Assembly (NCBI RefSeq): GCF_003349955.1
Contig: NZ_QLKQ01000009.1
Coordinates: 62,001-126,000, forward strand
DNA length: 64,000 nucleotides
Direction: 5' to 3'
Origin: Azospirillum brasilense
GTDB taxonomy: Bacteria > Pseudomonadota > Alphaproteobacteria > Azospirillales > Azospirillaceae
In this document: positions 11,667-25,123 of the stretch, piece after piece
Position numbering within the stretch: position 1 is the stretch's first letter
Layout of the letters: the number at the start of each line of letters is the position of its first letter
Program-made: the position numbers and the translations under genes
Notes under the pieces: generated by a model
What the model saw: the letters and a program-made list of their open reading frames with translations, nothing else
Database searches by the model: none
Told to the model about the DNA's origin: nothing

Positions 11667-12000
11667 AGTGGCCCTCTCGCCATCGCGGCGGTCGCGTATC
11701 GGGAAGGCCAATAACAAAGTGATTTGTTGAAGAAACTCTGAACGCTGCCGGCCTTTTGGCCGACTGGAAATTAATTCCGCTTGGATTGGTGGCTATACAA
11801 CGACGAAATCCCCGCAGGGTGGGGATGGTTACTGCATGAATTTTGGCTCATGCAGAAGAAAATTGTCGATTATTGACACATTTGAGGCTTTGGTTGTGAA
11901 AGACGCGAAAGCACCTTTCTGAAAAGTGGTGTTCGGGAGCGGCGCCGCCTCTGTCGATCCACCTGGGGATGCAGAGGCGGCGCCGTCCGTACGGATCGCG
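11667..12000 (-). promoter_or_regulatory. Structured, AT-rich leader and promoter region of the giant adhesin gene
   Basis: The 334 bp between the ABC ATPase stop and the adhesin ATG contains no convincing gene. It is much richer in A and T than its surroundings. Four separate inverted repeats lie in a row: 11713-11728 (AACAAA-GTGA-TTTGTT), 11749-11762 (CGGCC-TTTT-GGCCG), 11808-11826 (ATCCCC-N7-GGGGAT) and 11832-11855 (CTGCATGA-N8-TCATGCAG, perfect 8-bp arms). The last, farthest from the gene, is the best operator candidate; the others lie where a 5' leader would be. No promoter hexamers are convincing, so the transcription start is not assigned. Confidence 0.5.
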
Positions 12001-13221
12001 TCAGGAGGCCGTCCGGATGGTGCCGACGCGCCCGCCGGCCAGGAAGTCCTCCGCGGCCCGCCCGCCGACGCGGAGCCCGCTGTCCTTCTCGAACAGGGAA
12101 AAGTCCTTCAGCAGGCAGTCGATGCCGACCGCCTCGCCGACGCGCAACTCGCTGTAGCCGGGGACGGAGACCATCACCTCGTCGGTCAGGCCGCCGTCGT
12201 CGTCGTGGGCGGTGTGGACGCCGGACAGCTTGACCGAGATCAGCGATTCCGCCCCCACATGCTCGACCAGGGTGACGGTGCCCGGCAGGCTCTTGCCCTG
12301 GCCCGGCGGCACGACGGCCAGCGCGCCGGGGCGCAGGCCCAGCCAGACCCTCATGCGGCTGCTGCCGCCCGGCCTCTCCGCCTTGTCGGGCAGCGGCAGG
12401 ACGCTGTTGCCGATGCGCACGGTCATGCCCTCGACCTCGGCGTCGATCAGGTTCATCGGCGGCGTGCCGATGAAGCGGGCGACGTAGGTGTTGGCCGGCT
12501 TCTCGTAGATCTCGCGCGGGGTGCCGTACTGCTGGAGGTGCCCGTCGCGCATCAGCGCGATGCGGGTGCCCATGGTCATCGCCTCGATCTGGTCGTGGGT
12601 GACGTAGACGAAGTTGCCGCCGACCCGCTGGTGGAGCTGGGTGATCTCCGCCCGCATGGCGGTGCGCAGCTTGGCGTCGAGGTTCGACAGCGGCTCGTCC
12701 ATCAGGAAGGCCGACGGCTCGCGCACCATGGCGCGGCCGAGCGCCACGCGCTGGCGCTGGCCGCCCGACAGGGTGCGCGGGTGGCGGTCGAGCACCTTGG
12801 TCAGGGCCAGCGTGTCGGCGGTGCGCTCCACCAGCTCGCGCACCTCCGGCGAGTTCTCGATGCGGCGCTTGAAATAGTCGCCGATGAAGGGGATGTGGAA
12901 CCACCAGCGGAACTGCCGCATGATCAGCGGGAAGGCGATGTTCCGGCGCACCGTCATGTGCGGGTAGAGCGCGTAGGACTGGAAGACGAAGGCCATGTCG
13001 CGGTCGCTGGGCGGCAGCTCGTCCACCCGCTTGCCGCCGAGATGGATCTCGCCGCTGGTCACCGTCTCGAGCCCCGCGATCATGCGCAGGATGGTGGACT
13101 TGCCGCAGCCCGACGGGCCGAGCAGAACCAGGAACTCGTCGTCGCCGGCCTCCAGGCTCACGTTGTCGATCACGGTCAGCGAACCGAAGGACTTCGTGAC
13201 GTTCTGCAGTTTGATAGCCAT
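12001..13221 (-). CDS. Sugar-type ABC importer ATPase (MalK/UgpC-like)
   Basis: Cytoplasmic ATPase of 406 residues powering the permeases encoded immediately upstream. Walker A is GPSGCGKST (35-43), signature LSGGQRQRVALGRA, Walker B FLMDEPLSNLD, H-loop YVTHD, followed by a C-terminal OB/TOBE regulatory region typical of the CUT1 family. The ATG at 13221 is preferred because AAGGGAA precedes it and the product begins MAIKLQNVTKSFG, as in the family. Unusually, the helical domain between the Q-loop and signature carries roughly 20 extra residues containing FRWWFHIPFIGDYFKRR. It is the last gene of the minus-strand operon starting at 23540. Substrate is unknown, but operon enzymes suggest a sugar acid or related compound. 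Confidence 0.94.
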   Translation of the reverse strand: MAIKLQNVTKSFGSLTVIDNVSLEAGDDEFLVLLGPSGCGKSTILRMIAGLETVTSGEIHLGGKRVDELPPSDRDMAFVFQSYALYPHMTVRRNIAFPLIMRQFRWWFHIPFIGDYFKRRIENSPEVRELVERTADTLALTKVLDRHPRTLSGGQRQRVALGRAMVREPSAFLMDEPLSNLDAKLRTAMRAEITQLHQRVGGNFVYVTHDQIEAMTMGTRIALMRDGHLQQYGTPREIYEKPANTYVARFIGTPPMNLIDAEVEGMTVRIGNSVLPLPDKAERPGGSSRMRVWLGLRPGALAVVPPGQGKSLPGTVTLVEHVGAESLISVKLSGVHTAHDDDGGLTDEVMVSVPGYSELRVGEAVGIDCLLKDFSLFEKDSGLRVGGRAAEDFLAGGRVGTIRTAS

Positions 13222-13282
13222 TGGGCTTTTCCCTTTTATCTCTCGGGCGTGTCGGTGCAAGGGGGGCGGGATCGGCCCACGG

Positions 13283-14104
13283 TCAGCCCTTGACGCCGCC
13301 GGTCGTCATGCCGGCGACCACGTAGCGTTGGACGAACAGGTAGAAGACGACCGCCGGCAGCGTGTAGATGAAGCCGACCGCCATGACCGTGTGCACCGGC
13401 GTGCTCAGCTCGCCCACGAAGCTGGCGAGGCCGACCGAGGCGGTGCGCAGGGCGTCGTCGCTGATGAAGGTCTGGGCGAAGACATACTCGTTCCAGCCGT
13501 GGAAGAAGGCGATCACCGCGGCGGCCGCCAGCGTCGGTGCGATCAGCGGAACCACCACCGCCAGCACGATGCCGAGGCGGGAGCAGCCGTCCACCCTCGC
13601 GGCCTCCTCGATCTCCGACGGCACGCCGTCGATGGCGCCCTTCAGGATCCAGGTCACCACCGGCACCGTGAAGGCCGTGTTGGCCAGGATCAGGCCGAGC
13701 AGCGTGTTGAGCAGCGACAGCTTGGTGAAGATGTCGTAGAGCGGCACCACCAGCATCGCTTCCGGCAGCATCTGCGTCATGAACAGCGCGAAGCCGAGCA
13801 GCAGCTTGCCGTTGAAGGTCAGGCGCGACAGCGCGTAGGCCGGCAGCACCGACAGCAGGATGCTCAGCACCGTCGTGCCGACCGCGACGATCAGGCTGTT
13901 GACCAGCCATTGGCGCAGCGAGGTCTCGGTGAAGGCGGCGGCGTAGGTGCCGATCTGCGACAGCGTCGGCAGCAGGTTCGGCGTGTCGTCGAACAGCCGC
14001 TCCGACGGGGTGAGCGAGGTCACCAGCATCCAGTAGAGCGGGAAGGCCGCCACCCCGAGGAGGACCAGGACGGCGAGCGTGCGGGCCGTGGAATTGTGTT
14101 TCAT
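13283..14104 (-). CDS. ABC importer permease, MalG-like
   Basis: Inner-membrane permease of 273 residues with six predicted helices; helix 1 is near residues 9-28. The EAA loop that contacts the ATPase reads EIEEAARVDGCSRLGIVL and precedes LPLIAP-like residues, as in MalG/UgpE. The start codon lies 4 bp after the stop of the MalF-like gene, and the stop is 61 bp before the ATPase start, consistent with one transcript. It pairs with the MalF-like permease to form the channel. Confidence 0.94.
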   Translation of the reverse strand: MKHNSTARTLAVLVLLGVAAFPLYWMLVTSLTPSERLFDDTPNLLPTLSQIGTYAAAFTETSLRQWLVNSLIVAVGTTVLSILLSVLPAYALSRLTFNGKLLLGFALFMTQMLPEAMLVVPLYDIFTKLSLLNTLLGLILANTAFTVPVVTWILKGAIDGVPSEIEEAARVDGCSRLGIVLAVVVPLIAPTLAAAAVIAFFHGWNEYVFAQTFISDDALRTASVGLASFVGELSTPVHTVMAVGFIYTLPAVVFYLFVQRYVVAGMTTGGVKG

Positions 14105-14108
14105 GACA

Positions 14109-15047
14109 TCACCGCTTTCCGGCGGCCTTTTCCGCCCGCGTCGTCAGCCAGAAATAGACCAGCGTCACCAGGATCGCGACGACCAGCCCGATGATGCCGA
14201 CCGCCGCCGCCCGGCCGAGGTCGAGATAGACGAAGGCGCGGCGGTACAGGTCGATGACCAGCGTGTTGGTCTCGCCCAGCGGACCGCCCTGGGTCATCAG
14301 CCAGATCACGTCGAAGCGGCGCAGCGACCACACGGTGATGAGCAGGGTCAGCAGGGCCACCGACGGGCGGATGGTCGGCCAGGTGACGGCGCGGAAGATG
14401 CTCAGCCGGTCGGCCCCGTCGATCACCGCCGCCTCGCGCAGTTCCGACGGCACGCCCTGGAGGGCGGCCAGGATGACGACGGAGGAGAAGGGGAAGATCT
14501 GCCAGATCGTGGTGATAAGGATGGCCGGCAGGGCGAAGGACGGCTCGTCCAGCCAGTTCACCCCGCCGTCGGCGAAGCCGAAGAACTGGGCGAGGTGGCT
14601 GAACAGGCCGTACTGAGCGTTGAACATCCACACGAAGATCAGCGCCGCGGCGACCGGCGGGGCGGCCCACGGAATGGTGACCAGCGCGCGGGCGATGCCG
14701 CGCCCCCGGAAGGTGCCGTCGAGCAGCAGCGCCGCCAGCAGGCCGAGCCCGATGGAGGCGACCACGCAGACCACCGTGTAGACCGCGGTGACGCGCAGGA
14801 CCTGATGGAACTCCGGGTCGAAGACGAGTTCGCGGTAATTGTCCAGCCCGACGTAGGTCTGCTGGCCGGGTGAGAGCAGCGAGGTGGAGGTGACGCTGAG
14901 CAGGAATTCCTGCACCAGCGGGTAGCCCTGGAAGACCAGGAGATAGAGCGCCACCGGGGCGACGAAGAGCGCGGGAACCCAGCGGCCATGGTCGATCGGC
15001 GCGCGCCGCGCGGCGGCCCTGGGCTGGCTCACGGTCCTGCTCATCAT
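14109..15047 (-). CDS. ABC importer permease, MalF/UgpA-like
   Basis: Inner-membrane permease of 312 residues. An N-terminal cytoplasmic basic stretch precedes helix 1 (ALFVAPVALYLLVFQGYP), and the ATPase-contacting EAA loop reads REAAVIDGADRLSIFRAVTWP. The profile fits CUT1 sugar transporters such as MalF, UgpA and LacF. It is separated from the solute-binding protein gene by 261 bp occupied mostly by a palindromic repeat, an arrangement that may lower permease expression relative to the binding protein. Confidence 0.93.
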   Translation of the reverse strand: MMSRTVSQPRAAARRAPIDHGRWVPALFVAPVALYLLVFQGYPLVQEFLLSVTSTSLLSPGQQTYVGLDNYRELVFDPEFHQVLRVTAVYTVVCVVASIGLGLLAALLLDGTFRGRGIARALVTIPWAAPPVAAALIFVWMFNAQYGLFSHLAQFFGFADGGVNWLDEPSFALPAILITTIWQIFPFSSVVILAALQGVPSELREAAVIDGADRLSIFRAVTWPTIRPSVALLTLLITVWSLRRFDVIWLMTQGGPLGETNTLVIDLYRRAFVYLDLGRAAAVGIIGLVVAILVTLVYFWLTTRAEKAAGKR

Positions 15048-15092
15048 GATGCGGTATCCGGAGTTGGAACCAAGGCGATCGCTTCCGACATT

Positions 15093-15266
15093 CCCTCTCC
15101 CCTCCGGGGAGAGGGGTAGGGTGAGGGGGTTGCGCGTGTCGGTAGGCTCGACAAAAGCGCAACCCCCTCACCGGCCCTTCGGGCCACCCTCTCCCCGCTT
15201 TCGGCGGACCGGAGGTCCCCCTGCTCACGCGCAAACTTCGTTTGCGCGTGAGCAGGGGGGAGAGGG
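15093..15266. repeat. Palindromic intergenic repeat, copy A
   Basis: Composite inverted repeat between the binding-protein and permease genes. It contains a CCTCTCCCC-TCC-GGGGAGAGG hairpin, a 14-bp perfect stem (GTGAGGGGGTTGCG with CGCAACCCCCTCAC) around a 23-nt loop, a GGCCC-TTC-GGGCC hairpin, and a 20-bp perfect stem with a 3-nt loop (arms 15217-15236 and 15240-15259). Related elements lie at 27433, 34045 and 47869. The shared blocks include CCGGCCCTTCGGGCCACCCTCT or close variants, so this is a dispersed family, not chance pairing. Confidence 0.88.
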
Positions 15267-15308
15267 TTAAGGATGGACGAAGGCAATCGCCCTGGAATTG
15301 TGCGGGCG

Positions 15309-16574
15309 TTACTTCTGGGCGAGCACGCGGGCGGTGATCAGGCGCTGCGCCTCGTCCATGGCGGTCTGCGGGGCGACGCCGCCCTGGAGCACCTTGAGGA
15401 GCTGCTGGACGATGATCTGCTGGATCTCCGGCGCCTTGGTCTCAAGCCCCTGCGGCAGGGCCGGCACGCTGTTCGGGGTCTGCGCGTCGTAGACCTTCAG
15501 CCAGGGCATGGCCTGAAGCTCCTCCGGCGTGCGCTCCACCGTCGTCGCGACGTTGGCGGCGCCGAGCAGGGTCTGGAGTTCCTGCTGCTGCTGGGGCTGG
15601 AGCGCCCATTGCAGGAACTTGCCGGCGGCGTCCTTCACCTTGGTGTTGGCGTTGATGGTCACCGGAGCCAGGATCATGCCCTGCTCCTTGTGCGGGAAGG
15701 GCGACGGGGCGGCAGCGATGGGGTGCGCCTTGCCCTGCGAGGTCAGGATGGTGGCGACACCGCCGTTGTCGATCTCCATGGCGACCTTGCCTTCCCAGAA
15801 CATTCGCCGGTAGGTGGCGGCGTCGGTGCCCTTGGGGATCATGCCGGCGTCATAGACGGTCTTGTAGGCGGCGACACCCGCCACGACCTCCGGGCTGTTG
15901 AAGGTCGGCGTGCCGTCCGGCTTGGACCAGCGCCCGCCGAAGCCGTAGACGAAGTTGGTCAGGTCGTACCAGACGCCGCCGCGCTCGGCCATCGTGGCGC
16001 GGAAGGCGAAGCCGTAGTTGCCGTCCTTCGTCGCCTCCTTGCCGAGCTTCACGAACTCCTCGAAGGTCTTGGGCGGCGTGCCGTTGGGCAGCAGCGCGGC
16101 GTTGTAGACCATCGCGTAGTTGGCGGTGTCAAAGGCGAAGCCGTAGCGCTTGCCCTCCACCTTCATGTACTGGTCGGCGGCGGTGAAGTTGTGGGCGCCG
16201 TCCTTCACGATGTCGTCGATCGGCAGGACCGACTTGGCGGCCACCGCCGCGTAGAACTCCGGCAGGTCGAAGCGGATCACGTCGGGGCCGCCGTTGCCGC
16301 CCATCTGCGTGAAGATGGTGGTGGCGAAGGAGGAGAAGGGGATGGTGACCGGCTTCACCTCGATGTCGGGCTGGGACTGGTTGAACTTTTCGACCCAGGC
16401 CTTCAGCCGGTCGCCGCGGCCGACCTCGGCGAAGTGGGACGCAGCGAAGGTCACCACCGTCTTTCCCGAAGACTGGGCCAGGGCGACCGAGGCGGTGCCC
16501 AGCGCCAGGGCGGCGGCGAGCCCGCCGGCCAGAAGGGGGGTGATGCCCGTGATTGCGCTCAGAAACGGCTTCAT
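15309..16574 (-). CDS. Periplasmic sugar-type solute-binding protein (family 1)
   Basis: Substrate-capturing component of the CUT1 importer, 421 residues. The signal peptide covers about residues 1-33 (TASVALA before QSSG). The mature protein has family 1 features: VVTFAASHFAEVGRGDRLKA at the N-terminus, the DVIRFDLPEFYAAVA region after the first lobe, and FWEGKVAMEIDNGGV in the hinge/second lobe. A strong ribosome site (AGAGGAGG) precedes the ATG. It follows the semialdehyde dehydrogenase gene by 100 bp and precedes permeases, MalK-like ATPase and repeat copy A. The ligand cannot be read from sequence. Confidence 0.93.
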   Translation of the reverse strand: MKPFLSAITGITPLLAGGLAAALALGTASVALAQSSGKTVVTFAASHFAEVGRGDRLKAWVEKFNQSQPDIEVKPVTIPFSSFATTIFTQMGGNGGPDVIRFDLPEFYAAVAAKSVLPIDDIVKDGAHNFTAADQYMKVEGKRYGFAFDTANYAMVYNAALLPNGTPPKTFEEFVKLGKEATKDGNYGFAFRATMAERGGVWYDLTNFVYGFGGRWSKPDGTPTFNSPEVVAGVAAYKTVYDAGMIPKGTDAATYRRMFWEGKVAMEIDNGGVATILTSQGKAHPIAAAPSPFPHKEQGMILAPVTINANTKVKDAAGKFLQWALQPQQQQELQTLLGAANVATTVERTPEELQAMPWLKVYDAQTPNSVPALPQGLETKAPEIQQIIVQQLLKVLQGGVAPQTAMDEAQRLITARVLAQK

Positions 16575-16642
16575 GCTGCGTCCTCCTCTGAATTTGTTCG
16601 TTTACTGTCTTTTTTGGTTGGTTTAGCCCGCAATCCTGGAAC

Positions 16643-16656
16643 CATACCAGAGTATG
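16643..16656. other. Small hairpin between dehydrogenase and binding-protein genes
   Basis: CATAC-CAGA-GTATG forms a perfect 5-bp stem in the 100-bp gap just upstream of the binding-protein gene. It could be an mRNA processing or operator element. It has no T-run, so it is not called a terminator. Confidence 0.3.
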
Positions 16657-16674
16657 CGGACCGGTGGTCGGGGT

Positions 16675-18255
16675 TCAGTGCCGGCCCAACGCTCCGTCGA
16701 ACCGGCGCCACAGCCCCAGCGGGTTGCCGTCGCGCAGGGCTTGCGGCAGCAGGTCGGCGGGGATGTCCTGGTAGCAGACGGGCCGCAGGAACCGCTCGAT
16801 GGCCGCCGTGCCGACCGAGGTGGTGCGGCCGTCCGACGTGGCCGGGAAGGGGCCGCCATGCACCATGGCGTGGCAGACCTCGACGCCGGTCGGCCAGCCG
16901 TTGGCCAGGATGCGGCCGGCCTTGCGCTCCAGCGTCGGCAGCAGGACCGCCGCCGCCCCGGTGTCGGCCGCGTCCATGTGCAGGGTCGCGGTGAGCTGGC
17001 CGTCCAGCCGCTCCGCCACCACGCGCAGGGATTCCAGATCCGGGCAGCGGATGAGCAGAGAGGCGGCGCCGAACACCTCCTCCCGCAGGGCCGGGTCGTC
17101 GAGGAAGGCGTCGGCGGTCGTGGCGAACAGCGCCGCCCGGCACCGGTTGGGGCCATCGCCGTCCAGCCCGCGGGCCAGCGTCGCCACGAGGGCGTTGCCG
17201 GCCAGGGCGGCCACCCCGGCGTCGAAGGCGGCGTGGATGCCCGGCGTCAGCATGGTCGGCGCCGCGCTGCCGCCCAGCGCGTCCACGGCGGACGCCACGA
17301 AGCGGTCGAGGTCCGGCCCGTCCACCGCCAGCAGGATTCCGGGGTTGGTGCAGAACTGCCCGGCGCCCATGGTCAGCGAGGCGACGAAGCTCTTGCCCAG
17401 CGCCTCCGCCCGCGCGGCGAGCGCCGCCGGCAGCAGGAAAACCGGGTTGATGCTGCTCATCTCGGCGTAGACGGGGATCGGCTCCGGACGCCTGGCCGCC
17501 ACCTCCATCAGCGCCACGCCGCCGCGGCGCGACCCGGTGAAGCCGACCGCCTTGATGCGCGGGTCGGCGACCAGCGCCGTGCCCACCGACGAGCCGGCGC
17601 CGAAGATCAGCGAGAAGACGCCCTCCGGCAGCCCGCATTCGGCGACGGCCGCCTGGACGGCGCGGCCGACCAGCTCCGACGTGCCGGGATGGGCGGAGTG
17701 GGCCTTGACCACCACCGGACAGCCGGCGGCGAAGGCCGAGGCGGTGTCGCCCCCGGCCACCGAGAAGGCCAGCGGGAAATTGCTGGCGCCGAACACCGCG
17801 ACGGGGCCGAGCGGGATGCGGCGCTGGCGCAGGTCGGGGCGGGGCAGGGGCGCCCGCTCCGGCAGGGCCGGGTCGATGCGGGCGCCGATCCAGCTTCCCT
17901 CCCGCACCACCGCGGCGAACAGGCGGAGCTGGCCGACGGTGCGGCCCCGCTCCCCCTCCAGCCGGGCGCGCGGCAGGCCGCTTTCGGCCATGGCGCGGAC
18001 GATCAACGCGTCGCCGAGGTCGAGGATGTTGCGGGCGACCGCCTCCAGGAAGACGGCGCGGTCCTCCGGCGCGGTCTCGCGGAAGCGGTCGAAGGCGTCC
18101 CAGGCGAGCTGGCAGGCGCGGTCCACCTCCGCCGCCCCGCCGCCGCCGAAGGCGGGCTCCAGCGTCGCCCCGGTGGACGGGTCGATGGCGTGGATCTCGC
18201 CGTTGCGGCCGCGGTGGCTCTCGGCGCCGATCAGCATCATGCCGGTGAGGGTCAC
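16675..18255 (-). CDS. NADP-type aldehyde dehydrogenase, probable alpha-ketoglutarate semialdehyde dehydrogenase
   Basis: Cytoplasmic dehydrogenase of 526 residues, likely oxidising 2,5-dioxopentanoate to 2-oxoglutarate. The family's general base is E265 (in AEMSSINP) and the nucleophile is C302 (in [10 protein letters not shown]); cofactor-site blocks [15 protein letters not shown] and GFTGSRRGG are present. The variant SSINP/QFCTNPG motifs and length are characteristic of the KGSADH II/III group described from Azospirillum brasilense and of XylA-type enzymes of the Weimberg pathway, in contrast to the shorter ordinary aldehyde dehydrogenases. It lies 61 bp after an FAH-family gene, the usual partner that makes the semialdehyde from a 2-keto-3-deoxy acid. 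Exact substrate is inferred. Confidence 0.88.
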
Positions 18256-18316
18256 GGGCAGGTCCTTTCCTGGTCTCGGTGCTCTTGGTCTCGGTGCTTT
18301 CAGTCTCGGGGCGGCA

Positions 18317-19501
18317 TCAGCCGAGCAGGCCGCGGCCCGCGAGGTTCCGCATCAGCGCGGCGGCGCCGAAGTCCCAGGGCGCGCAGTCGGCGCAATGGCG
18401 GACCCGGTTGGTCAGGCTGCCCAGCGCCGGGGCGGTGATGGTCACCACGTCGTCCAGCTTGTGGGTGAAGCCCTCGCCCGGACGGTCGCGGTCCTCGACC
18501 GGCGCGAACATGGTGCCGAGCAGCAGGACGAAGCCGTCCGGATACTGGTGGTTCTCGCCGATGGTGGCCTCGACCAGCTCCACCGGGTCGCGGCTGATCT
18601 GCGACATGGAGCTGGAGCCCTCCAGCCGGAAGCCGTCGCTGCCCTCGACCACCAGCCCAAGCTCGGCGCTGCGCACGCCGTCGAGGGTGAAGCGGTCGTC
18701 GAACAGGCGGATGAACGGGCCGATGGAGCCGCTGGCGTTGTTGTCCTTGGCCTTGCCGAGCAGCAGGGCGGAGCGCCCCTCGACGTCGCGCAGGTTCATG
18801 TCGTTGCCGAGCGTGGCGCCGACGATGTCCCCGCGGCTGGAAGCCAGGACGGCGATTTCCGGCTCCGGGTTGTTCCACACCGAATAGGGCGGGATGCCGA
18901 CGTGGGCGCCGGTGCCGACCGCCGACATCGGCTGGCCCTTGGTGAAGATCTCGGCGTCGGGGCCGATGCCGACCTCAAGGTATTGCGACCACACCCCGCG
19001 GGCGATCAGCGCCTTCTTGACCTCCATGGCCTCCGGCGAGCCGGGCTTCAGGCTGGACAGGTCGCGCCCGATCAGCGCGTCGATGTCGGCGCGGATCGCC
19101 AGCGCCTTTTCCGGGGCGCCGCGCGCCTGCTCCTCGATGACGCGCTCCAGCAGGCTGACGACGAAGGTCACGCCGGACGCCTTCACCGCCTGGAGGTCGA
19201 TGGGGGCCAGCAGCCAGGGCCGCTCCGGGTCGCGCCGGTCCTCGTCGGAGTTGGCGAGGATGGCGGCGGCGGTGCCGATCCACTCGCCGGGCAGGTCGCG
19301 GGCGATGGCCGCGGCGGCGCCGGTCTCCACCAGATCGCGCACGGTGGGCGCGTCGCGGCTGGTGATGTCGAACACGTCCCGGCCGCGCACGGCGATGACC
19401 GAGGGGCCGACGCCGGGACGCCAGGCGCGCCCGACCAGGAGCGCGCCCTCGTCCGCCGGCAGGGCGGCGGCGGGGTCGAGGGGAAGGGGTCGCTTGCTCA
19501 T
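18317..19501 (-). CDS. FAH-family enzyme, candidate 2-keto-3-deoxy-acid dehydratase
   Basis: Cytoplasmic fumarylacetoacetate-hydrolase-fold protein of 394 residues. Metal-site residues appear in [12 protein letters not shown] (E-x-E) and in the following [11 protein letters not shown] segment, and the glycine-rich C-terminal half includes [20 protein letters not shown]. Length and sequence resemble XylX/AraD1-like members, some of which dehydrate 2-keto-3-deoxy-pentonates to alpha-ketoglutarate semialdehyde. Direct coupling to the semialdehyde dehydrogenase gene 61 bp downstream strongly supports that role. The ATG at 19501 is preceded by GAGCGGAC and lies 17 bp after the hydratase stop. Hydrolase or decarboxylase activity cannot be excluded. 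Confidence 0.85.
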
Positions 19502-19518
19502 GGTGTCCGCTCCTCGTC

Positions 19519-20316
19519 TTACTTGCGCCGGAAGACCGGGCTGCGCTTTTCCTTGAAGGCGGCGCGCCCCTCGGCGGCGTCCGCCGTGGCGAAGCAGATG
19601 GTCTGCAGGTCGCGCTCGTACTCGATGGCCTTTTCCACCGGCATGGTGTGGGCGGCCTTCAGGTTCAGCTTCGCCGTCTCCGCCGCGATGGGGGCGCGGC
19701 TGGCGACGATGGCGGCGATCTCCTGCGCGCGGGCGAGCAGTCGGTCGGCGGGCACCACCTCGCTGACGAGACCCCAGGCCAGCGCCTTGTCCGCCGGGAT
19801 CGGGTCGCCGGTCAGGATCATCATCGCGGCGTTGGAGGTGCCGATGGAGTGCGAGAGGAAGGCCGCCACGCCGCCGCCGCCGATCCAGCCGAGCTTGATC
19901 TCCGGCGCACCGAACTGCGCGTTCTCCGACGCGATGCGGATGTCGCAGCTCATCGCCGTTTCCAGCCCGCCGCCGAAGGCGTAGCCGTTGACCGCGGCGA
20001 TGCTGGGCTTGCGCAAAGACCGGATGGCGTCGCAATAGTCCTCGCGGTTGCGGAAGTTCCAGGCGGTGTCGTAGCGGTCCAACTCGCGGATGTCGGAGCC
20101 GCAGCAGAAGGCGCGCGGCCCGGCGCCGGTCAGCACGACGCAGCGGATGTCGTCGTCGGCGTTGCAGCGGGCGACGGCGGCGACCAGCTCCGCGGCCATC
20201 TCCGGGGTCACCGCGTTCAGCTTCTGCGGGCGGTCGAGCGTGATGGTGGCGACGAAGCCGTCCACCGTGACGGTGACCTTGCCAAGCGCCGGATCGGGGG
20301 TGTTGAGCGAGTCCAT
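19519..20316 (-). CDS. Enoyl-CoA hydratase/isomerase (crotonase family)
   Basis: Cytoplasmic CoA-thioester enzyme of 265 residues. Both catalytic glutamates of true hydratases are present by alignment: E119 in GGGLETAMSCD and E139 in QFGAPEIKLG. The oxyanion-hole segment is AFCCGSDI, and the second oxyanion region GYAFGGG is intact. This predicts hydration of an alpha,beta-unsaturated acyl-CoA rather than a degenerate crotonase. It sits between a solute-binding-like gene (10 bp away) and the FAH gene (17 bp). Together with the class III CoA-transferase in the same operon it resembles the CaiB/CaiD pairing, but the remaining operon enzymes act on keto acids. Confidence 0.9.
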   Translation of the reverse strand: MDSLNTPDPALGKVTVTVDGFVATITLDRPQKLNAVTPEMAAELVAAVARCNADDDIRCVVLTGAGPRAFCCGSDIRELDRYDTAWNFRNREDYCDAIRSLRKPSIAAVNGYAFGGGLETAMSCDIRIASENAQFGAPEIKLGWIGGGGVAAFLSHSIGTSNAAMMILTGDPIPADKALAWGLVSEVVPADRLLARAQEIAAIVASRAPIAAETAKLNLKAAHTMPVEKAIEYERDLQTICFATADAAEGRAAFKEKRSPVFRRK

Positions 20317-20326
20317 GGGATGGGCC

Positions 20327-21478
20327 TTATCGTTCGGCGCCAGCAGCCGGACGGCTGGCGGCGTAGCGGTGTTGCAGGCGGTCGAGCAAGGCGGCGTGCG
20401 GCGTGCCGTCGGCCAGCGCGTCGCGGATCATCGCGGCGGCGTCGGCCTGGAAAGCGATGTAGCCGGCGTGGCGCGGGCGGACATAGGCGGCCTCCAGCGT
20501 CGCGGCGGTGTTGCGGTAGAAGCCGCCCCAGCGTTCGTTCACCGCCGCGTCCGCCCAGGCGTCGCGGCGGCTCGGCTGGCCGTCGTGGGCCGGGATGAAG
20601 CTCCGCTGCGCCTCGGCGCCGAGCAGCCAGCGCAGATGGTCGAGCAGGGCGGGCGTCACCTCGCAGCGCACGGAGACGCCGATGCCGGTGCCGCCCAGCG
20701 TCGAACCGGGACGCCCGTCCGCCGTGGCGCGCGGCGCGTCGGCGAAGGTGACCGGCTTCTCGCCCGAGGCGGTCGGGGCGGCGTAGTTGACGTAGCCGTA
20801 GACCAGCGGGCAGAGCGCGACCTCATCCGTGCGGGCCATGTGGCCGAGCAGCCCGATGGGGTTCAGCCCGCGCACCGCCGCCGGCATCCGCCCGGCCAGC
20901 GTCGCCATGAGGTCGAGCACCCGCGTCCCCACCTCCGTCGAGACCAGCCGGTCGGGATCGGCCACCGCGGGCGGATCGCCGAAGGCGGCCGCCATGGACA
21001 GGAAGGTCAGGCAGGCGTGGGGTCCGGCCAGCGACAGGGCGACCGGCGCCCGCTCGGACAGGCTCGCCACCTCCGCCCAGGTGACGGGGACCGGCCCGTC
21101 CAGAAGGTCGGCGCGGCAGGCCATCACCTGCGTCGCCGCGTCGAGCGGCAGCGCCCAATGCCGGTCGGCGAAGCGGTAGCTGGCGAGGCTCGGCCCGATG
21201 CTGTCGCGCTGCCAGCCGGCGATGTCCGCGGCGGTGAACAGTTCCTCCAGCGGGATCAGGCCGCGCTCCGCGACCGCCTCGCCGACATGCGGGTGGTCGA
21301 GGACGATCAGGTCGTAGCGGGCGCAGAGGTCGCCGATCGGATGGGCCTCGAAGCCTTCGAGCGGCTGCTTGTCCCAGTCGATCGCAAGCCCGTCGCGCGC
21401 CTCGTCCAGCCCGGCGGCGGCGGCCGCCAAGGCGTTGTAGCCGCGCGGGTGGTCCCAGGTCAGCGCGCGGTAGCGCAT
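20327..21478 (-). CDS. Solute-binding-protein-like cytoplasmic protein without signal peptide
   Basis: Protein of 383 residues with family 1 extracellular solute-binding features: YDLIVLDHPHVGEA after the first strand-helix unit, PLDAATQVMACRADLL (hinge), ALCPLVYGYVNYAA, and a C-terminal helical tail. The N-terminus MRYRALTWDHPRGYNALAAA begins at once with the first core strand and has no hydrophobic signal or lipobox. Upstream codons in this frame only mirror the CoA-transferase gene and give an Arg-rich, non-signal sequence. The gene overlaps the CoA-transferase 3' end by 19 bp and is followed by the hydratase after 10 bp. It may bind an intracellular intermediate or act enzymatically; I know of no characterised homologue. 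Confidence 0.8.
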   Translation of the reverse strand: MRYRALTWDHPRGYNALAAAAAGLDEARDGLAIDWDKQPLEGFEAHPIGDLCARYDLIVLDHPHVGEAVAERGLIPLEELFTAADIAGWQRDSIGPSLASYRFADRHWALPLDAATQVMACRADLLDGPVPVTWAEVASLSERAPVALSLAGPHACLTFLSMAAAFGDPPAVADPDRLVSTEVGTRVLDLMATLAGRMPAAVRGLNPIGLLGHMARTDEVALCPLVYGYVNYAAPTASGEKPVTFADAPRATADGRPGSTLGGTGIGVSVRCEVTPALLDHLRWLLGAEAQRSFIPAHDGQPSRRDAWADAAVNERWGGFYRNTAATLEAAYVRPRHAGYIAFQADAAAMIRDALADGTPHAALLDRLQHRYAASRPAAGAER

Positions 21479-22707
21479 GCCCGAACCTCCTCTTCCTCCG
21501 CCTCCGGCTCGGTGGCGGCGACGACGCCGGCGGCCAGCAGGCGGTCGATGGCCTCGGCGGTGAAGCCGGCGGCCTCCAGCACCTCGCGGGTGTGCTCGCC
21601 GGCCAGGGGCGCGCCGCGCTCGACCTCCGACGGGGTCTTGGAGAACTTGATCGGGAAGCCCGGCGTCTTGACGCGGCCCTCGGTCGGGTGGTCGTACTCG
21701 ACGAAGGTGCCGTTGTGCTTGATCTGCGGGTCGTTCACGAGGTCGGCGTAGCCGTAGACCGGCCCGGCCCAGACCCCGGCGGCGTTGAACAGCTCCAGCC
21801 ACTCGGCGGAGGTTTTGGCGGTCAGCCGGGCGCGGGTCTTGGCGAAGATCTCGTCGCGGCGCGACCAGCTGTCGGTCTCGTCCTCCATGTCGAGGAAGGA
21901 CGGCTCGCCGATCAGCTCGCCCAGCAGCTTCAGCGGCGGGAAGGCCACGATGATGAAGCCGTCGCTGGTGGCGAAGGCGCCGTAGGGCGCGCGGATGTAG
22001 ACGTGGGCGTGCGGCTCGGCGGAGCGGGTCTGCGGCTTGCCGCCGACCGTGAAGACCGACAGCTCCTGCATCTGGATCGTCGTGATGGCGTCCAGCATGT
22101 TGACCTGGACGAGCTGGCCCTCGCCGGTGCGCTCGCGGTGGAGCAGGGCGGCCAGCACGCCCTCGAAGGCGGTGTAGCCGGTGATCGCGTCCACCAAGTA
22201 CTGGCCGGCGGGGGTCGGGGCCTCGCCCTCGCGGCCGGCCGACAGCATGGCGCCGGACATGCCCTGCAACAGCAGGTCCTGGCCCGGGCGCTGGACGTAG
22301 GGGCCGGTCTCGCCATAGCCGGAGATCGACAGGTAGATCAGGCGCGGGTTGACCGCGGAGAGCGATTCATAGTCCACGCCCAGCCGCTTGGCGACGCCGG
22401 GCCGGTAGTTCTGGAGGAAGACGTCGGCGGTCTTGACCAGCTCCATCAGCAGGGCCTTGCCCTCGGTGTTCTTCAGGTCGACGGCGAGCGAGCGCTTGTT
22501 CCGGTTCAGCGACAGGAAGGAGACGTTCACTTTGTTGCCGGTGATGCCGCCCGCCGCGGTGTGGCGCTGCCACTCGCCGGTCACCGGCTCCACCTTCACC
22601 ACGTCGGCGCCGAGGTCACCCAGGCGCTGCGCCGCCAGCGGGCCGGCCATGGCGATGGAGCAGTCGAGCACACGGTAACCGCTGAGGATGTTGCGTTTCT
22701 TGTCCAT
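21460..22707 (-). CDS. Class III (CaiB/BaiF) CoA-transferase
   Basis: Cytoplasmic enzyme of 415 residues that would transfer CoA between a carboxylate and an acyl-CoA. Family landmarks are GYRVLDCSIAMAGPLAAQ at the N-terminus, LGADVVKVEP, FLSLNRNKRSLAVDLK, and NYRPGVAKRLG. The catalytic Asp is D144 in RPGQDLLLQGM, which forms the glutamyl/aspartyl-CoA-type anhydride intermediate in characterised members. The C-terminus includes GFPIKFSKTPSEVERGAPLAGEHT, near the family end. It follows the short-chain dehydrogenase by 68 bp and overlaps the next gene. It implies that a carboxylic acid substrate of the operon is activated to a CoA-thioester. Confidence 0.93.
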   Translation of the reverse strand: MDKKRNILSGYRVLDCSIAMAGPLAAQRLGDLGADVVKVEPVTGEWQRHTAAGGITGNKVNVSFLSLNRNKRSLAVDLKNTEGKALLMELVKTADVFLQNYRPGVAKRLGVDYESLSAVNPRLIYLSISGYGETGPYVQRPGQDLLLQGMSGAMLSAGREGEAPTPAGQYLVDAITGYTAFEGVLAALLHRERTGEGQLVQVNMLDAITTIQMQELSVFTVGGKPQTRSAEPHAHVYIRAPYGAFATSDGFIIVAFPPLKLLGELIGEPSFLDMEDETDSWSRRDEIFAKTRARLTAKTSAEWLELFNAAGVWAGPVYGYADLVNDPQIKHNGTFVEYDHPTEGRVKTPGFPIKFSKTPSEVERGAPLAGEHTREVLEAAGFTAEAIDRLLAAGVVAATEPEAEEEEVRACATAR

Positions 22708-22775
22708 GATGTCCGGATCTTGTTGCCGTGGGTCCGCCGGCCATGGCGGAAGGATGGGGCGGAAAGGATGGGTGG

Positions 22776-23540
22776 TCAGCCGTTGGTCGCCGGGGCTTCG
22801 GTGAAGAAGGCGCGGTTCCAGACGGGGCTGATGAGGATTTCGTTGACGCAGACGTGGGGCGGCATCTCGGCCACGAAGCGGATGGTGCGGCCCAGGTCTT
22901 CGGGCTGGAGCAGGCGCGCCATCTCCTCAGCCGGGGGCGGGGAGGGGCGCTGGCCCAGCAGGTCGGTTGCCACCTCGCCGGGCATGACCACGCAGGAGCG
23001 CAGGCCGTTGCGCCATTCCTCCATGTTCAGGCTGTGGCTCAGCGTCACCAGCGCCTGCTTCGTCGCGTTGTAGCCGGGTCCGCCGAGGACGAGCGCGTGC
23101 CGACCGACCCAGGAGGACACGATGATGACGGTGCCGGACCGGCGCTCCCGCATGGCGGGCAGCACCGCCTGGATGGCGTGCATGGTGCCGTTGAGGTTGA
23201 CGTCGACCAGCCGCCGCCAGCCCTCCGCCCCGACCTCGCGGAAGCTGCGGTTGGGCAGGTTCATCCCGGCGCTGGCGACCAGCGTGTCGATTCGCCCGTG
23301 GCGGTCGAGGATCGCCGCCGCCACGCGCCGCACCGCCGCCTCGTCGGCCACGTCGAGCACCGCGGTCTCGGCCCTGCCGCCGGCGGTGCGGATGGACTCC
23401 GCCACGCGGTCGAGCGCGTCCTCGCGCCGTCCGGACAGGACGACGGTGGCGCCGCCCTGCGCCAGCGCCCGCGCGCCGGCCTCCCCGATTCCGCTGCCGC
23501 CGCCGGTGATCCAGGCGACGCTGTCCGCAAGAACGCTCAT
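22776..23540 (-). CDS. Short-chain dehydrogenase/reductase
   Basis: Cytoplasmic NAD(P)-dependent oxidoreductase of 254 residues, first gene of the long operon. The cofactor motif is TGGGSGIG (12-19), the NAG-like motif is ASAGMN, and the catalytic residues are Ser142/143, Tyr157 and Lys161 (YNATK). GRRED after the second strand, with Arg rather than Asp at the adenosine-ribose position, hints at NADP preference. The start at 23540 was chosen because it gives the family N-terminus MSVLADSVAWITGG; further upstream codons fall in the operator region. It may oxidise the imported hydroxy compound before CoA activation. Confidence 0.92.
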   Translation of the reverse strand: MSVLADSVAWITGGGSGIGEAGARALAQGGATVVLSGRREDALDRVAESIRTAGGRAETAVLDVADEAAVRRVAAAILDRHGRIDTLVASAGMNLPNRSFREVGAEGWRRLVDVNLNGTMHAIQAVLPAMRERRSGTVIIVSSWVGRHALVLGGPGYNATKQALVTLSHSLNMEEWRNGLRSCVVMPGEVATDLLGQRPSPPPAEEMARLLQPEDLGRTIRFVAEMPPHVCVNEILISPVWNRAFFTEAPATNG

Positions 23541-23872
23541 GTCTTGCCCGCTTCGTTGCTTGTCTTTGTCGCTTGCCCGCCGTCCGGCCATCGGGCCGCC
23601 GCGGTGTCCCTCCCAGCGCCCCCGGATCGTCCGCCTTCGCGTTCGTTCCGAGTGACCGCTAACGTGACCGGTAACATGATTGGTTGGGGCAATCAAGCAT
23701 ATTTGGTGAGCGATAACGTTAGCGTTCACGTGACCGCTAATATGAAATGCGCTATGGATTGTGGAAACGGGGCCGCACCCGGCTTGCAACGGCGGGCGCG
23801 GCCATGCACAAGAAGGCGACCGGTCGGTGCGCGAAGGCGGGCCGGCGGAGGCAGGATAAGAGGTCATCCCAG
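23541..23872. promoter_or_regulatory. Divergent regulatory region with four LacI/GntR(Ec)-like palindromes
   Basis: The 332 bp between the SDR and LacI genes holds a cluster of related palindromes at 23650-23743. The best, ACGTGACCGGTAACAT at 23662-23677, matches 14 of 16 bases of the E. coli GntR (LacI-family) operator ATGTTACCGGTAACAT. A 12/16 match lies at 23728-23743 and an 11/16 match at 23650-23665. A further palindrome, CGATAACGTTAGCG, occupies 23711-23724 and reuses the same TAACG half site. This suggests cooperative autorepression and control of the divergent catabolic operon. Promoter elements themselves are not resolved. Confidence 0.65.
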
Positions 23873-24934
23873 GTGTCGGACGAAGGACAGCTTTCGCTCA
23901 GGAAGGCGGAGTCACGGCGGCGCTCCGCGACCCGCGCGGTGACGATGGCCGATGTGGCGCAGGCCGCGGGCGTCTCCACGCAGACGGTCTCGCGCGCGCT
24001 CCGCGATCCGCGCAGCGTCGGCCCGGACACGCTCGCCCGCATCGAGGAGGCGGTGCGCGAAACCCGCTATGTGCAGAATCTGGCGGCGAGCCACCTCGCC
24101 TCCAACCGCAGCATGACGGTGGCGGCGATCATCCCGACCATCTCCGCCTCGATCTTCGCGGAAACCATCCAGGGGCTGACCGACGTCCTGCTGCCGGAGG
24201 GCTATCAGGTCTTCCTCGGCCACACCGACTACATGGCGGGGCGCGAGGAGTCGCTGGTCCGCAGCTTCAGCGGGCGGCGCCCCGACGGCTTCTTCATCAT
24301 CGGCACCCGCCACACCCAGGAGACCACCGCCCTGCTGAAGCGCACCGGGGTCCCGGTGGTCGAAAGCTGGAGCTGGACGAACCGCCCCGTCGACATGCTG
24401 GTCGGCTTCTCCAACCACGCCGCCCTGATGAGCGTGGTCGACCATCTGGTGGGGCGCGGCTATCGCCGGCTGGCCTTCACGGGCGTCATGAAGCCGGGCG
24501 ACCACCGCGCCAAGGAGCGTCTGAAGGGCTTCCAGGACGCCCACGAGCGTCATTTTCCGGGCATGACGCCGCGCGTCGTCACGGTCACCAGCGGGCCGAT
24601 GGTGATGGCGACCGGCGTGGAGCTGCTGAAACTGGTGCGGGAGCAGCACCCCGACACCGACGCCGTGGTGTTCGTCAGCGACGTGCTGGCCTCCGGCGCC
24701 CTGCTGGCCTGCAGCGGCCTGGGCATCTCGGTGCCGAAGGATCTGGCGATCACCGGGTTCGGCAATTACGACATCGCCGGGCAACTGACGCCGGGCCTGA
24801 CCACCATCGCCATCGCCAGCCGCAGGATCGGCATGGAATCCGCCAACCTCCTGCTGCGGCGGATGCAGGGCGGCGAGGTGGAGAACCGCACCCAGGACGT
24901 GGGGTTCGAGCTTCTGGTGCGGGGCAGCGCCTGA
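23873..24934 (+). CDS. LacI-family transcriptional regulator
   Basis: DNA-binding repressor of 353 residues. The N-terminal helix-turn-helix reads TMADVAQAAGVSTQTVSRAL, with the hinge helix ending NLAASHLASNRS, then a periplasmic-binding-like effector domain (AAIIPTISASIFAETIQGL through GFELLVRGSA). The GTG at 23873 is preferred because AGAGGTC lies 8 nt before it; the ATG at 23747 is immediately after an operator palindrome, has no ribosome site, and would add 42 poorly structured basic residues. It is divergent from the 11.5-kb operon and probably represses it until a sugar-acid-like inducer binds. Resemblance to gluconate-type regulators is supported by operator sequence. Confidence 0.93.
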   Translation: MSDEGQLSLRKAESRRRSATRAVTMADVAQAAGVSTQTVSRALRDPRSVGPDTLARIEEAVRETRYVQNLAASHLASNRSMTVAAIIPTISASIFAETIQGLTDVLLPEGYQVFLGHTDYMAGREESLVRSFSGRRPDGFFIIGTRHTQETTALLKRTGVPVVESWSWTNRPVDMLVGFSNHAALMSVVDHLVGRGYRRLAFTGVMKPGDHRAKERLKGFQDAHERHFPGMTPRVVTVTSGPMVMATGVELLKLVREQHPDTDAVVFVSDVLASGALLACSGLGISVPKDLAITGFGNYDIAGQLTPGLTTIAIASRRIGMESANLLLRRMQGGEVENRTQDVGFELLVRGSA

Positions 24935-24996: not shown

Positions 24997-25123
24997 GCCC
25001 CATTTTGTCGCGACCCGCCAGTTTGCGCTTCCCGTCCGGGCGTGATGGGAGGATGATTCTCCACCGTTTTCATCAGGTTCATCGTGCTTTTCAACGATTG
25101 CGAATCGTTTGGGAGGAGTACGC

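Follow-up and report, generated by a model that had tools for sequence, protein, structure and literature searches.

An Azospirillum brasilense sugar-importer operon with a conserved CoA-transferase, signal-less binding protein and hydratase, and its possible role in sugar-acid dehydration

Two described pathways come close to the gene content of a ten-gene operon in a 64,000-nucleotide stretch of Azospirillum brasilense DNA (contig NZ_QLKQ01000009.1), called the window below. CaiB and CaiD dehydrate carnitine on coenzyme A (CoA), and the catalytic CoA is exchanged from the product to the substrate. Four enzymes are required for the Weimberg route of sugar breakdown: a dehydrogenase for the sugar, a dehydratase for the aldonate, a second dehydratase for the keto-deoxy acid and a dehydrogenase for the semialdehyde. 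To our knowledge, aldonates are dehydrated by metal or iron-sulfur dehydratases in all known variants of the Weimberg and Entner-Doudoroff routes. The aldonate dehydratase families of the Weimberg route are treated in the part of PMC9795676 cited here, where D-xylonate dehydration is called rate-limiting. CoA chemistry also occurs in two further sugar-related systems. For Klebsiella michiganensis a CoA thioester, deoxyribonyl-CoA, has been proposed as the form in which a sugar acid is processed (PMC6365646, in part), and in the inositol breakdown of Anaerostipes a CoA-transferase, an enoyl-CoA hydratase and an acyl-CoA dehydrogenase are encoded together (PMC8355322, in part).

The window operon shares with CaiB and CaiD a class III CoA-transferase (CoAT) and a two-glutamate crotonase in one operon, and we propose that it works in the same way, with catalytic CoA and an overall loss of water from a 3-hydroxy acid. 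It differs from them by a gene for a protein of the solute-binding protein (SBP) fold, here named SBPx, between CoAT and crotonase, and by a sugar importer and an FAH gene in place of any carnitine genes. As in the Weimberg route, for example in the xyl genes of Caulobacter, an enzyme of the sugar dehydrogenase type, a putative FAH-type keto-deoxy-acid dehydratase and an aldehyde dehydrogenase (ALDH) are encoded; in place of an IlvD/EDD or enolase-type aldonate dehydratase, however, the operon has CoAT, SBPx and crotonase. The deoxyribonate route of K. michiganensis is similar in the proposed CoA thioester of a sugar acid, but there a CoA synthetase, a dehydrogenase and a thiolase are proposed, and the cited part of PMC6365646 makes no mention of SBPx, crotonase or FAH. 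A deoxyribonate-like thiolase route was rejected, as no thiolase or other cleavage enzyme is among the ten operon genes. Anaerostipes likewise combines CoA-transferase and enoyl-CoA hydratase genes, in the breakdown of a sugar-like polyol. Its enzymes handle 3-oxopropionate after an aldol cleavage, its CoA-transferase is of another type, and neither SBPx nor FAH is mentioned in the cited part of PMC8355322.

The ten-gene operon

The operon consists of ten co-directional minus-strand genes at positions 12001-23540, separated in the order of transcription by 68, -19 (an overlap), 10, 17, 61, 100, 261, 4 and 61 bp. A Pfam scan matched the expected family for each of the ten:

22776..23540, minus strand: oxidoreductase of the short-chain dehydrogenase/reductase (SDR) family, predicted sugar or sugar-acid dehydrogenase (PF00106, 159 bits)
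21460..22707, minus strand: class III (CaiB/BaiF) CoAT with candidate catalytic Asp173 (PF02515, 358 bits)
20327..21478, minus strand: SBPx, a homologue of carbohydrate ABC solute-binding proteins that lacks a signal and is predicted to be cytoplasmic (19-bp overlap with the CoAT gene)
19519..20316, minus strand: crotonase-family enoyl-CoA hydratase (ECH) with E119 and E139 (PF00378, 220 bits)
18317..19501, minus strand: FAH-superfamily enzyme, putatively of the 2-keto-3-deoxypentonate dehydratase type (9kkt, 401 bits; 2q18, 64 bits)
16675..18255, minus strand: NADP-type ALDH, predicted 2-oxoglutarate-semialdehyde dehydrogenase (PF00171, 145 bits; nearest solved structures 3v4c and 1eyy)
15309..16574, minus strand: extracellular SBP of the importer, with signal peptide (PF01547, 115 bits; N-terminus)
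14109..15047, minus strand: ABC permease 1, UgpA/MalF type (PF00528; best NCBIfam relatives)
13283..14104, minus strand: ABC permease 2, GlcU/UgpE/MalG type (PF00528; best NCBIfam relatives)
12001..13221, minus strand: MalK-type ABC ATPase with OB and TOBE domains (PF00005, PF17912, PF08402)

The operon is thereby confirmed as real. An earlier, sequence-only reading of this DNA had described ten tightly spaced genes linked to a LacI gene, a solute-binding-like protein that lacks a leader, and a hydratase with both catalytic glutamates, and all of this was found as described. The LacI gene diverges from the operon; the catalytic role of E119 and E139 is assigned by homology. That reading also named an alpha-ketoglutarate semialdehyde dehydrogenase. 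Here the ALDH family holds, and the subfamily is a guess: no NCBIfam model reached its cut-off among the best 25 of 36, and the GucD model NF042993 scored 78 of 770 bits.

A chance gene order is unlikely, because the families recur together at other loci. The loci nearest to the window are those of three A. brasilense strains and Azospirillum sp. OGB3, with SBPx identities of 94-97%. All ten families recur, in altered order, at one locus in two strains of Paracoccus onubensis. In a Chelatococcus locus the SDR, CoAT, SBPx, ECH and importer genes are kept.

Conservation of the CoA-transferase, SBPx and hydratase genes

The CoAT-SBPx-hydratase module is firmly conserved. With ECH as the hydratase it is present in sugar operons of Alphaproteobacteria, Variovorax and Streptomyces, and no description of it was found in the open-access literature, subscription papers being outside the search. 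Genomes were searched for SBPx at E<=1e-20 in sets that each include their centre and overlap slightly. Matches were found in 6 of 385 class genomes, in 21 of 82 Azospirillaceae genomes and, in further sets, in 32 of 248, 3 of 16 and 11 of 248; a match was also present in 145 plasmid records, 90 of them from Sinorhizobium. The genome searches gave 68 loci, 11 of them from the window and closely related Azospirillum, and a CoAT gene lies on the same strand within 250 bp of SBPx in 53 of them.

Among the 37 longer loci, 32 have CoAT, and these 32 contain ECH (25 loci), a MaoC hydratase (six) or neither (one, Nitratireductor L029), but never both. MaoC has a hydratase fold unrelated to that of crotonase. 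Two folds with this reaction in common suggest that a CoA thioester is indeed hydrated or dehydrated. The counts for the 25 ECH loci do not represent independent events, as they include five near-copies from A. brasilense and its relatives (L009-L012, L033), two strains of one Paracoccus species and seven loci of one family (L057-L063). According to the sequence-only reading, sub-blocks found in separate places in relatives would tell against a single route. Such dispersal applies to the FAH and ALDH genes only; the ECH gene stays within 0.3 kb of SBPx in 24 of the 25 loci and lies 3.8 kb away in Shinella L028. An uninterrupted CoAT-SBPx-ECH-FAH run occurs in P. onubensis, Streptomyces NBC_00184, Pseudosulfitobacter, Variovorax paradoxus and Pararhizobium. 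The shorter FAH280 type was found in three of the six MaoC loci and at one locus that lacks CoAT, and UxaA likewise in three of the six MaoC loci; neither occurs in any ECH locus.

Two side observations were made around these genes. At L058 a Pfam scan identified GH141-like beta-helix, MFS, amidohydrolase and enolase-family genes near CoAT-SBPx-ECH, and in the Azospirillaceae relatives L057-L063 BLAST found amidohydrolase and enolase-family genes in all except L061, a content that resembles an L-fucose route. Furthermore, a family I CoA-transferase (PF01144, in L122) adjoins a different crotonase, 36% identical in L122 to that of the window. Such blocks are located at L122 5962-12825, L124 6424-11291 and L125 6400-8762 in Peteryoungia, Roseibium and Rhizobium beside sugar ABC importers; two of them also contain Gfo/Idh/MocA and ALDH genes. 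The blocks may represent a second CoA-linked sugar route. Peteryoungia L122, which has FAH together with the family I CoA-transferase and crotonase, was considered as convergent support for the route proposed below and rejected: the same block is present in Roseibium without FAH, so that a single case is left.

A possible CoA-tethered route of aldonate dehydration

The window operon holds candidates for every Weimberg enzyme except the aldonate dehydratase, and the Pfam scan detected neither an IlvD/EDD nor an enolase-family aldonate dehydratase among the ten genes. IlvD/EDD genes were also absent from the 37 longer SBPx loci when searched with three queries from the own genome; two apparent matches came from the antisense frame of a repeat-bearing query and disappeared with the right frames. 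We propose that the route is of the Weimberg type, with CoAT and crotonase in place of the aldonate dehydratase. This is the most economical mechanism, and we hold it tentatively, as a leading possibility that falls short of being probable.

A pentose or an aldonate would be taken up by the MalK-type importer, and the sugar would be oxidized by the SDR unless the aldonate is imported directly. CoAT would shift CoA from the product thioester to the aldonate, the CoA being only catalytic, as with CaiB in the case of carnitine. The crotonase would then strip the 3-hydroxyl off the 2,3-dihydroxyacyl-CoA, giving an enol that turns into 2-keto-3-deoxyaldonyl-CoA. Through the swap of CoA to the next aldonate, 2-keto-3-deoxypentonate would be released, dehydrated by FAH to 2-oxoglutarate semialdehyde and converted by ALDH into 2-oxoglutarate. 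SBPx, predicted to be cytoplasmic, would bind the sugar acid and hand it to CoAT. Gene content, conservation and sequence motifs are observations; the reactions, the substrate and the contact between SBPx and CoAT are inferred.

The sequence-only reading had also arrived at an uncharacterized CoA route to 2-oxoglutarate. As an outline this is still the best reading, the CoA genes being conserved with importers and often with FAH, but the CoA pair does not have to be the entry to an acid pathway of its own. The contrast drawn there, that FAH plus the semialdehyde dehydrogenase needs no CoA step, was misplaced, since the CoA pair can fill the dehydration gap of the Weimberg route. The order of steps given there, in which an imported hydroxy acid is oxidized by the SDR, activated, hydrated by the crotonase and passed out through 2-oxoglutarate, is improbable. 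It fits the gene content loosely and crotonases are reversible, but no gene supplies a 2-enoyl acid, and none of the ten genes gave a Pfam match to a thiolase, an acyl-CoA dehydrogenase or a thioesterase.

The solved relative nearest to CoAT is the succinate-hydroxymethylglutarate CoA-transferase 9br6 (239 bits). Its Asp aligns with Asp173, which sits in the motif LVDAITG and would be catalytic by homology. The L-carnitine CoA-transferase model NF002914 scored 143 bits against a cut-off of 413; a carnitine operon was rejected on this score. The solved structure nearest to ECH is the 3-hydroxypropionyl-CoA dehydratase 5zai. Among the best 25 of 221 NCBIfam models for the SDR none reached its cut-off. 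E213, E215 and D234 of the FAH protein fall within stretches that align with 2q18, a 2-keto-3-deoxy-D-arabinonate dehydratase, and by sequence the protein appears related to the 2-keto-3-deoxypentonate dehydratases. The characterized D-KdpDs, as described in the cited part of PMC7374468, belong to the FAH family and are specific for D-acids. In Paracoccus denitrificans an ALDH 67.5% identical to that of the window is encoded one gene from FAH in the same gene run.

Stereochemistry gives a thin hint at the substrate. MaoC belongs with the PaaZ-type hydratases, which form (3R) products; D-xylonate, L-arabinonate and D-gluconate are 3S, and L-fuconate and L-rhamnonate are 3R. Crotonase-type hydratases yield (3S)-hydroxyacyl-CoA and the PaaZ-type relatives the (3R) form (PMC9007349, in part). 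Our best guess for the substrate is D-xylonate, because its 3S descriptor fits the crotonase and a D-acid fits the FAH type. Three of the six MaoC loci (L032, L068 and L070) have enolase-family genes together with UxaA, two of them (L032 and L068) also have an L-rhamnose mutarotase, and the other three lack the enolase-family and UxaA pair. A division of labour between crotonase for 3S acids and MaoC for 3R acids is a thin suggestion.

Of the 25 crotonase loci 16 have window-type FAH, and the 12 other longer loci all lack it. Among the Azospirillaceae genomes FAH is present in 20 of the 21 that have SBPx and in 27 of the 61 that do not (Fisher p 2e-5, kinship uncorrected). FAH also occurs in other gene neighbourhoods, some with IlvD/EDD genes, and one of the three IlvD/EDD queries found matches of 61-62% identity about 5 kb or less from FAH at L132 and L133. 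Two functions might be joined in one regulon, namely the importer with its CoA-linked acid module and, for some other substrate, a Weimberg tail. The FAH relatives near IlvD/EDD genes would agree with this, as would the Chelatococcus locus, where importer and CoA core are found without FAH and ALDH. We consider it unlikely, as FAH directly follows the hydratase gene not only in Azospirillum but also in the Paracoccus, Streptomyces, Variovorax, Pseudosulfitobacter and Pararhizobium loci.

SBPx is the most unusual conserved part of the module and was passed over in the sequence-only reading. AlphaFold predicts for it the full sugar-ABC-receptor fold (pLDDT 94.2). In this predicted fold it resembles the carbohydrate ABC solute-binding proteins 5iai, SmoF and LpqY; unlike them it has no signal peptide and a CoAT-linked gene, and identity among the matches listed is 10-20%. 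Inspection of the N-termini by eye revealed no signal peptide in the window protein or in 36 aligned relatives. A mis-started importer receptor was rejected as an explanation, since the importer has its own leader-bearing receptor and the SBPx relatives share the start site. Protein clusters matching SBPx at E<=1e-10 number 2503, of which the nearest 120 were listed. Two SBPx matches, L088 (G463) and G525:C12:74436-75557, each contain one in-frame TGA.

SBPx adjoins three deep CoAT lineages (A, B and C), with the genes in either order, and one full-length and clean CoAT-SBPx fusion, P0121, was found among the best 120 of 371 matches. We suggest on this basis, with less certainty than for the CoA-tethered dehydration, that SBPx may act as an acceptor-loading partner of CoAT. 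Two further lines of support were dropped. Independent recruitment of CoAT could not be claimed, as A, B and C fall with two further transferases, P0151 and P0153, in one larger clade against the other outgroups tried. The gene-distance correlation between SBPx and CoAT amounts to 0.92 over all 58 loci; it was not taken as a sign of a physical pair, since SBPx and the hydratase correlate no worse on the 24 loci where both were compared.

SBPx could instead be an enzyme or a cytoplasmic ligand sensor without a CoAT partner, whichever pathway is chosen, and we regard this as a serious possibility, still below an even chance. Enzymes with the binding-protein fold exist, such as MqnA and MqnD. In addition, some SBPx relatives are found without CoAT, several beside enolase-family, FAH or SDR genes, and the distance correlation reveals no special link to CoAT. 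The adjacency to three deep CoAT lineages in either order and the P0121 fusion argue for the partner role instead. Signal-less relatives without an adjoining CoAT are encoded at L021/L069, L024/L072, L097 and L099-L103, and several CoAT-less loci adjoin enolase-family, FAH280, SDR or IclR genes or oligopeptide-type importers.

A number of observations weigh against the proposed route and the role of SBPx in it. On the side of SBPx, 15 of the 68 loci have no adjacent CoAT; some of these are near contig ends, and most are remote relatives, with 33-44% identity to the closest reference (50-55% in two). The composite reading frames other than P0121 among the best 120 of 371 matches (six partial CoAT-SBPx, three CoAT-hydratase and one SBPx-hydratase) look truncated or frame-shifted and were left uncounted. 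Over the same 24 loci the distance correlation is 0.79 for SBPx and CoAT and 0.82 for SBPx and hydratase. On the side of the Weimberg tail, nine of the 25 crotonase loci lack window-type FAH. The link of FAH to SBPx is weaker in a second family (19 of 32 genomes with SBPx against 55 of 216 without, p 3e-4, kinship uncorrected), and the Azospirillaceae genus g285 has FAH in genomes without SBPx too. Window-type ALDH is limited to Azospirillum and Paracoccus among the 37 loci. Three IlvD/EDD genes are present elsewhere in the own genome and could supply the dehydratase in trans. Eight of the 25 crotonase loci have an enolase-family gene no more than 10 kb away. DUF4432-type (16 of 25), xylose-isomerase-like (6 of 25) and Gfo/Idh/MocA (5 of 25) genes occur at crotonase loci, and the proposed route has no need of them. 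The GH141-like beta-helix proteins and fucose-type genes near the module in the ECH loci L058 and Sphingomonas L014 tell against a simple xylose story. We also know of no record of A. brasilense as a good xylose user.

Some of these observations would be accommodated if the CoA branch served another acid unsuited to the ordinary aldonate dehydratases. This might be a sugar acid with a deoxy, methylated or branched structure, or else a small acid, for example 3-oxo- or 3-hydroxypropionate from inositol-type enzymes, with FAH and ALDH as an optional exit in some lineages only. Such a role is quite conceivable, although we would not expect it. It agrees with the Chelatococcus and Sinorhizobium loci that lack FAH and ALDH, with the recurrence of Gfo/Idh/MocA, AP_endonuc_2 and DUF4432 genes, with the GH141-like and fucose-type neighbours at L058 and L014, and with 3-hydroxypropionyl-CoA dehydratase as the nearest solved relative of the crotonase. 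The pairing of CoA-transferase and enoyl-CoA hydratase in Anaerostipes inositol breakdown, as given in the cited part of PMC8355322, points the same way. On the other hand, a check was possible for seven of the nine crotonase loci without FAH, and in every case the genome has FAH elsewhere; window-type FAH is confined to crotonase loci among the 37. Moreover, the window operon contains neither the recurring extra genes nor an acyl-CoA dehydrogenase, and a single DUF4432 query, run without a positive control, had no match in the own genome.

The proposed CoA-tethered aldonate dehydration may be extended to a general scheme. A periplasmic sugar receptor minus its export signal would have become the acceptor-loading subunit of CoAT, and the resulting dehydratase, free of metal and iron-sulfur clusters, would use crotonase for (3S) xylonate-type and MaoC for (3R) fuconate- or rhamnonate-type acids in the sugar catabolism of at least two bacterial phyla. 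In this full form the proposal is rather unlikely. A CoA-tethered alternative to the known dehydratases, if true, would provide a new way of sugar-acid dehydration and a role for what may be a large family of "solute-binding proteins" that lack a signal and are at present annotated as parts of transporters, and many rhizobial and Azospirillum operons would become testable.

Importer, regulator and flanking genes

The transporter has the features of a MalK-type (CUT1) importer, namely a signal-bearing SBP, two permeases and an ATPase with TOBE/OB domains. The remaining features of the region are:

15120..15267, no strand: strong inverted repeats in the gap that separates the SBP gene from the permease genes (20-nt arms, 100% complementary)
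23650..23745, no strand: candidate LacI/GntR-type operators, palindromes such as CGATAACGTTAGCG at 23711 and TAGCGTTCACGTGACCGCTA at 23720
23747..24934, plus strand: LacI-family regulator, GntR-like, with an ATG at 23945 (NF052440, 307 bits, cut-off 400)

The 261-bp gap between the receptor and permease genes (15048-15308) is rich in hairpins, including the perfect 20-nt one. In the Azospirillum relatives this gap is long in L009 and L011 and about 55 bp in L010 and L012. Within the LacI reading frame, the ATG at 23945 opens the helix-turn-helix. The protein is nearest to gluconate-type GntR models, all under the cut-off. Repeats resembling ATGTTAnCGnTAACAT were seen by eye in the LacI intergenic region of the Azospirillum and Chelatococcus relatives but not at the Sinorhizobium loci. 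The GntR-like regulator and the repeats would fit a sugar-acid effector.

Downstream of the operon, at 4377-11717 on the minus strand, a 2446-aa open reading frame contains many 'TPVNDAPVATGT...IAEDTANPAG' repeats; judged from its sequence, it resembles large repetitive proteins of the surface or adhesin type. On the other side, the LacI gene is followed directly by a gene at 25109-27190 on the plus strand, named by eye as encoding a CstA-like carbon-starvation protein.

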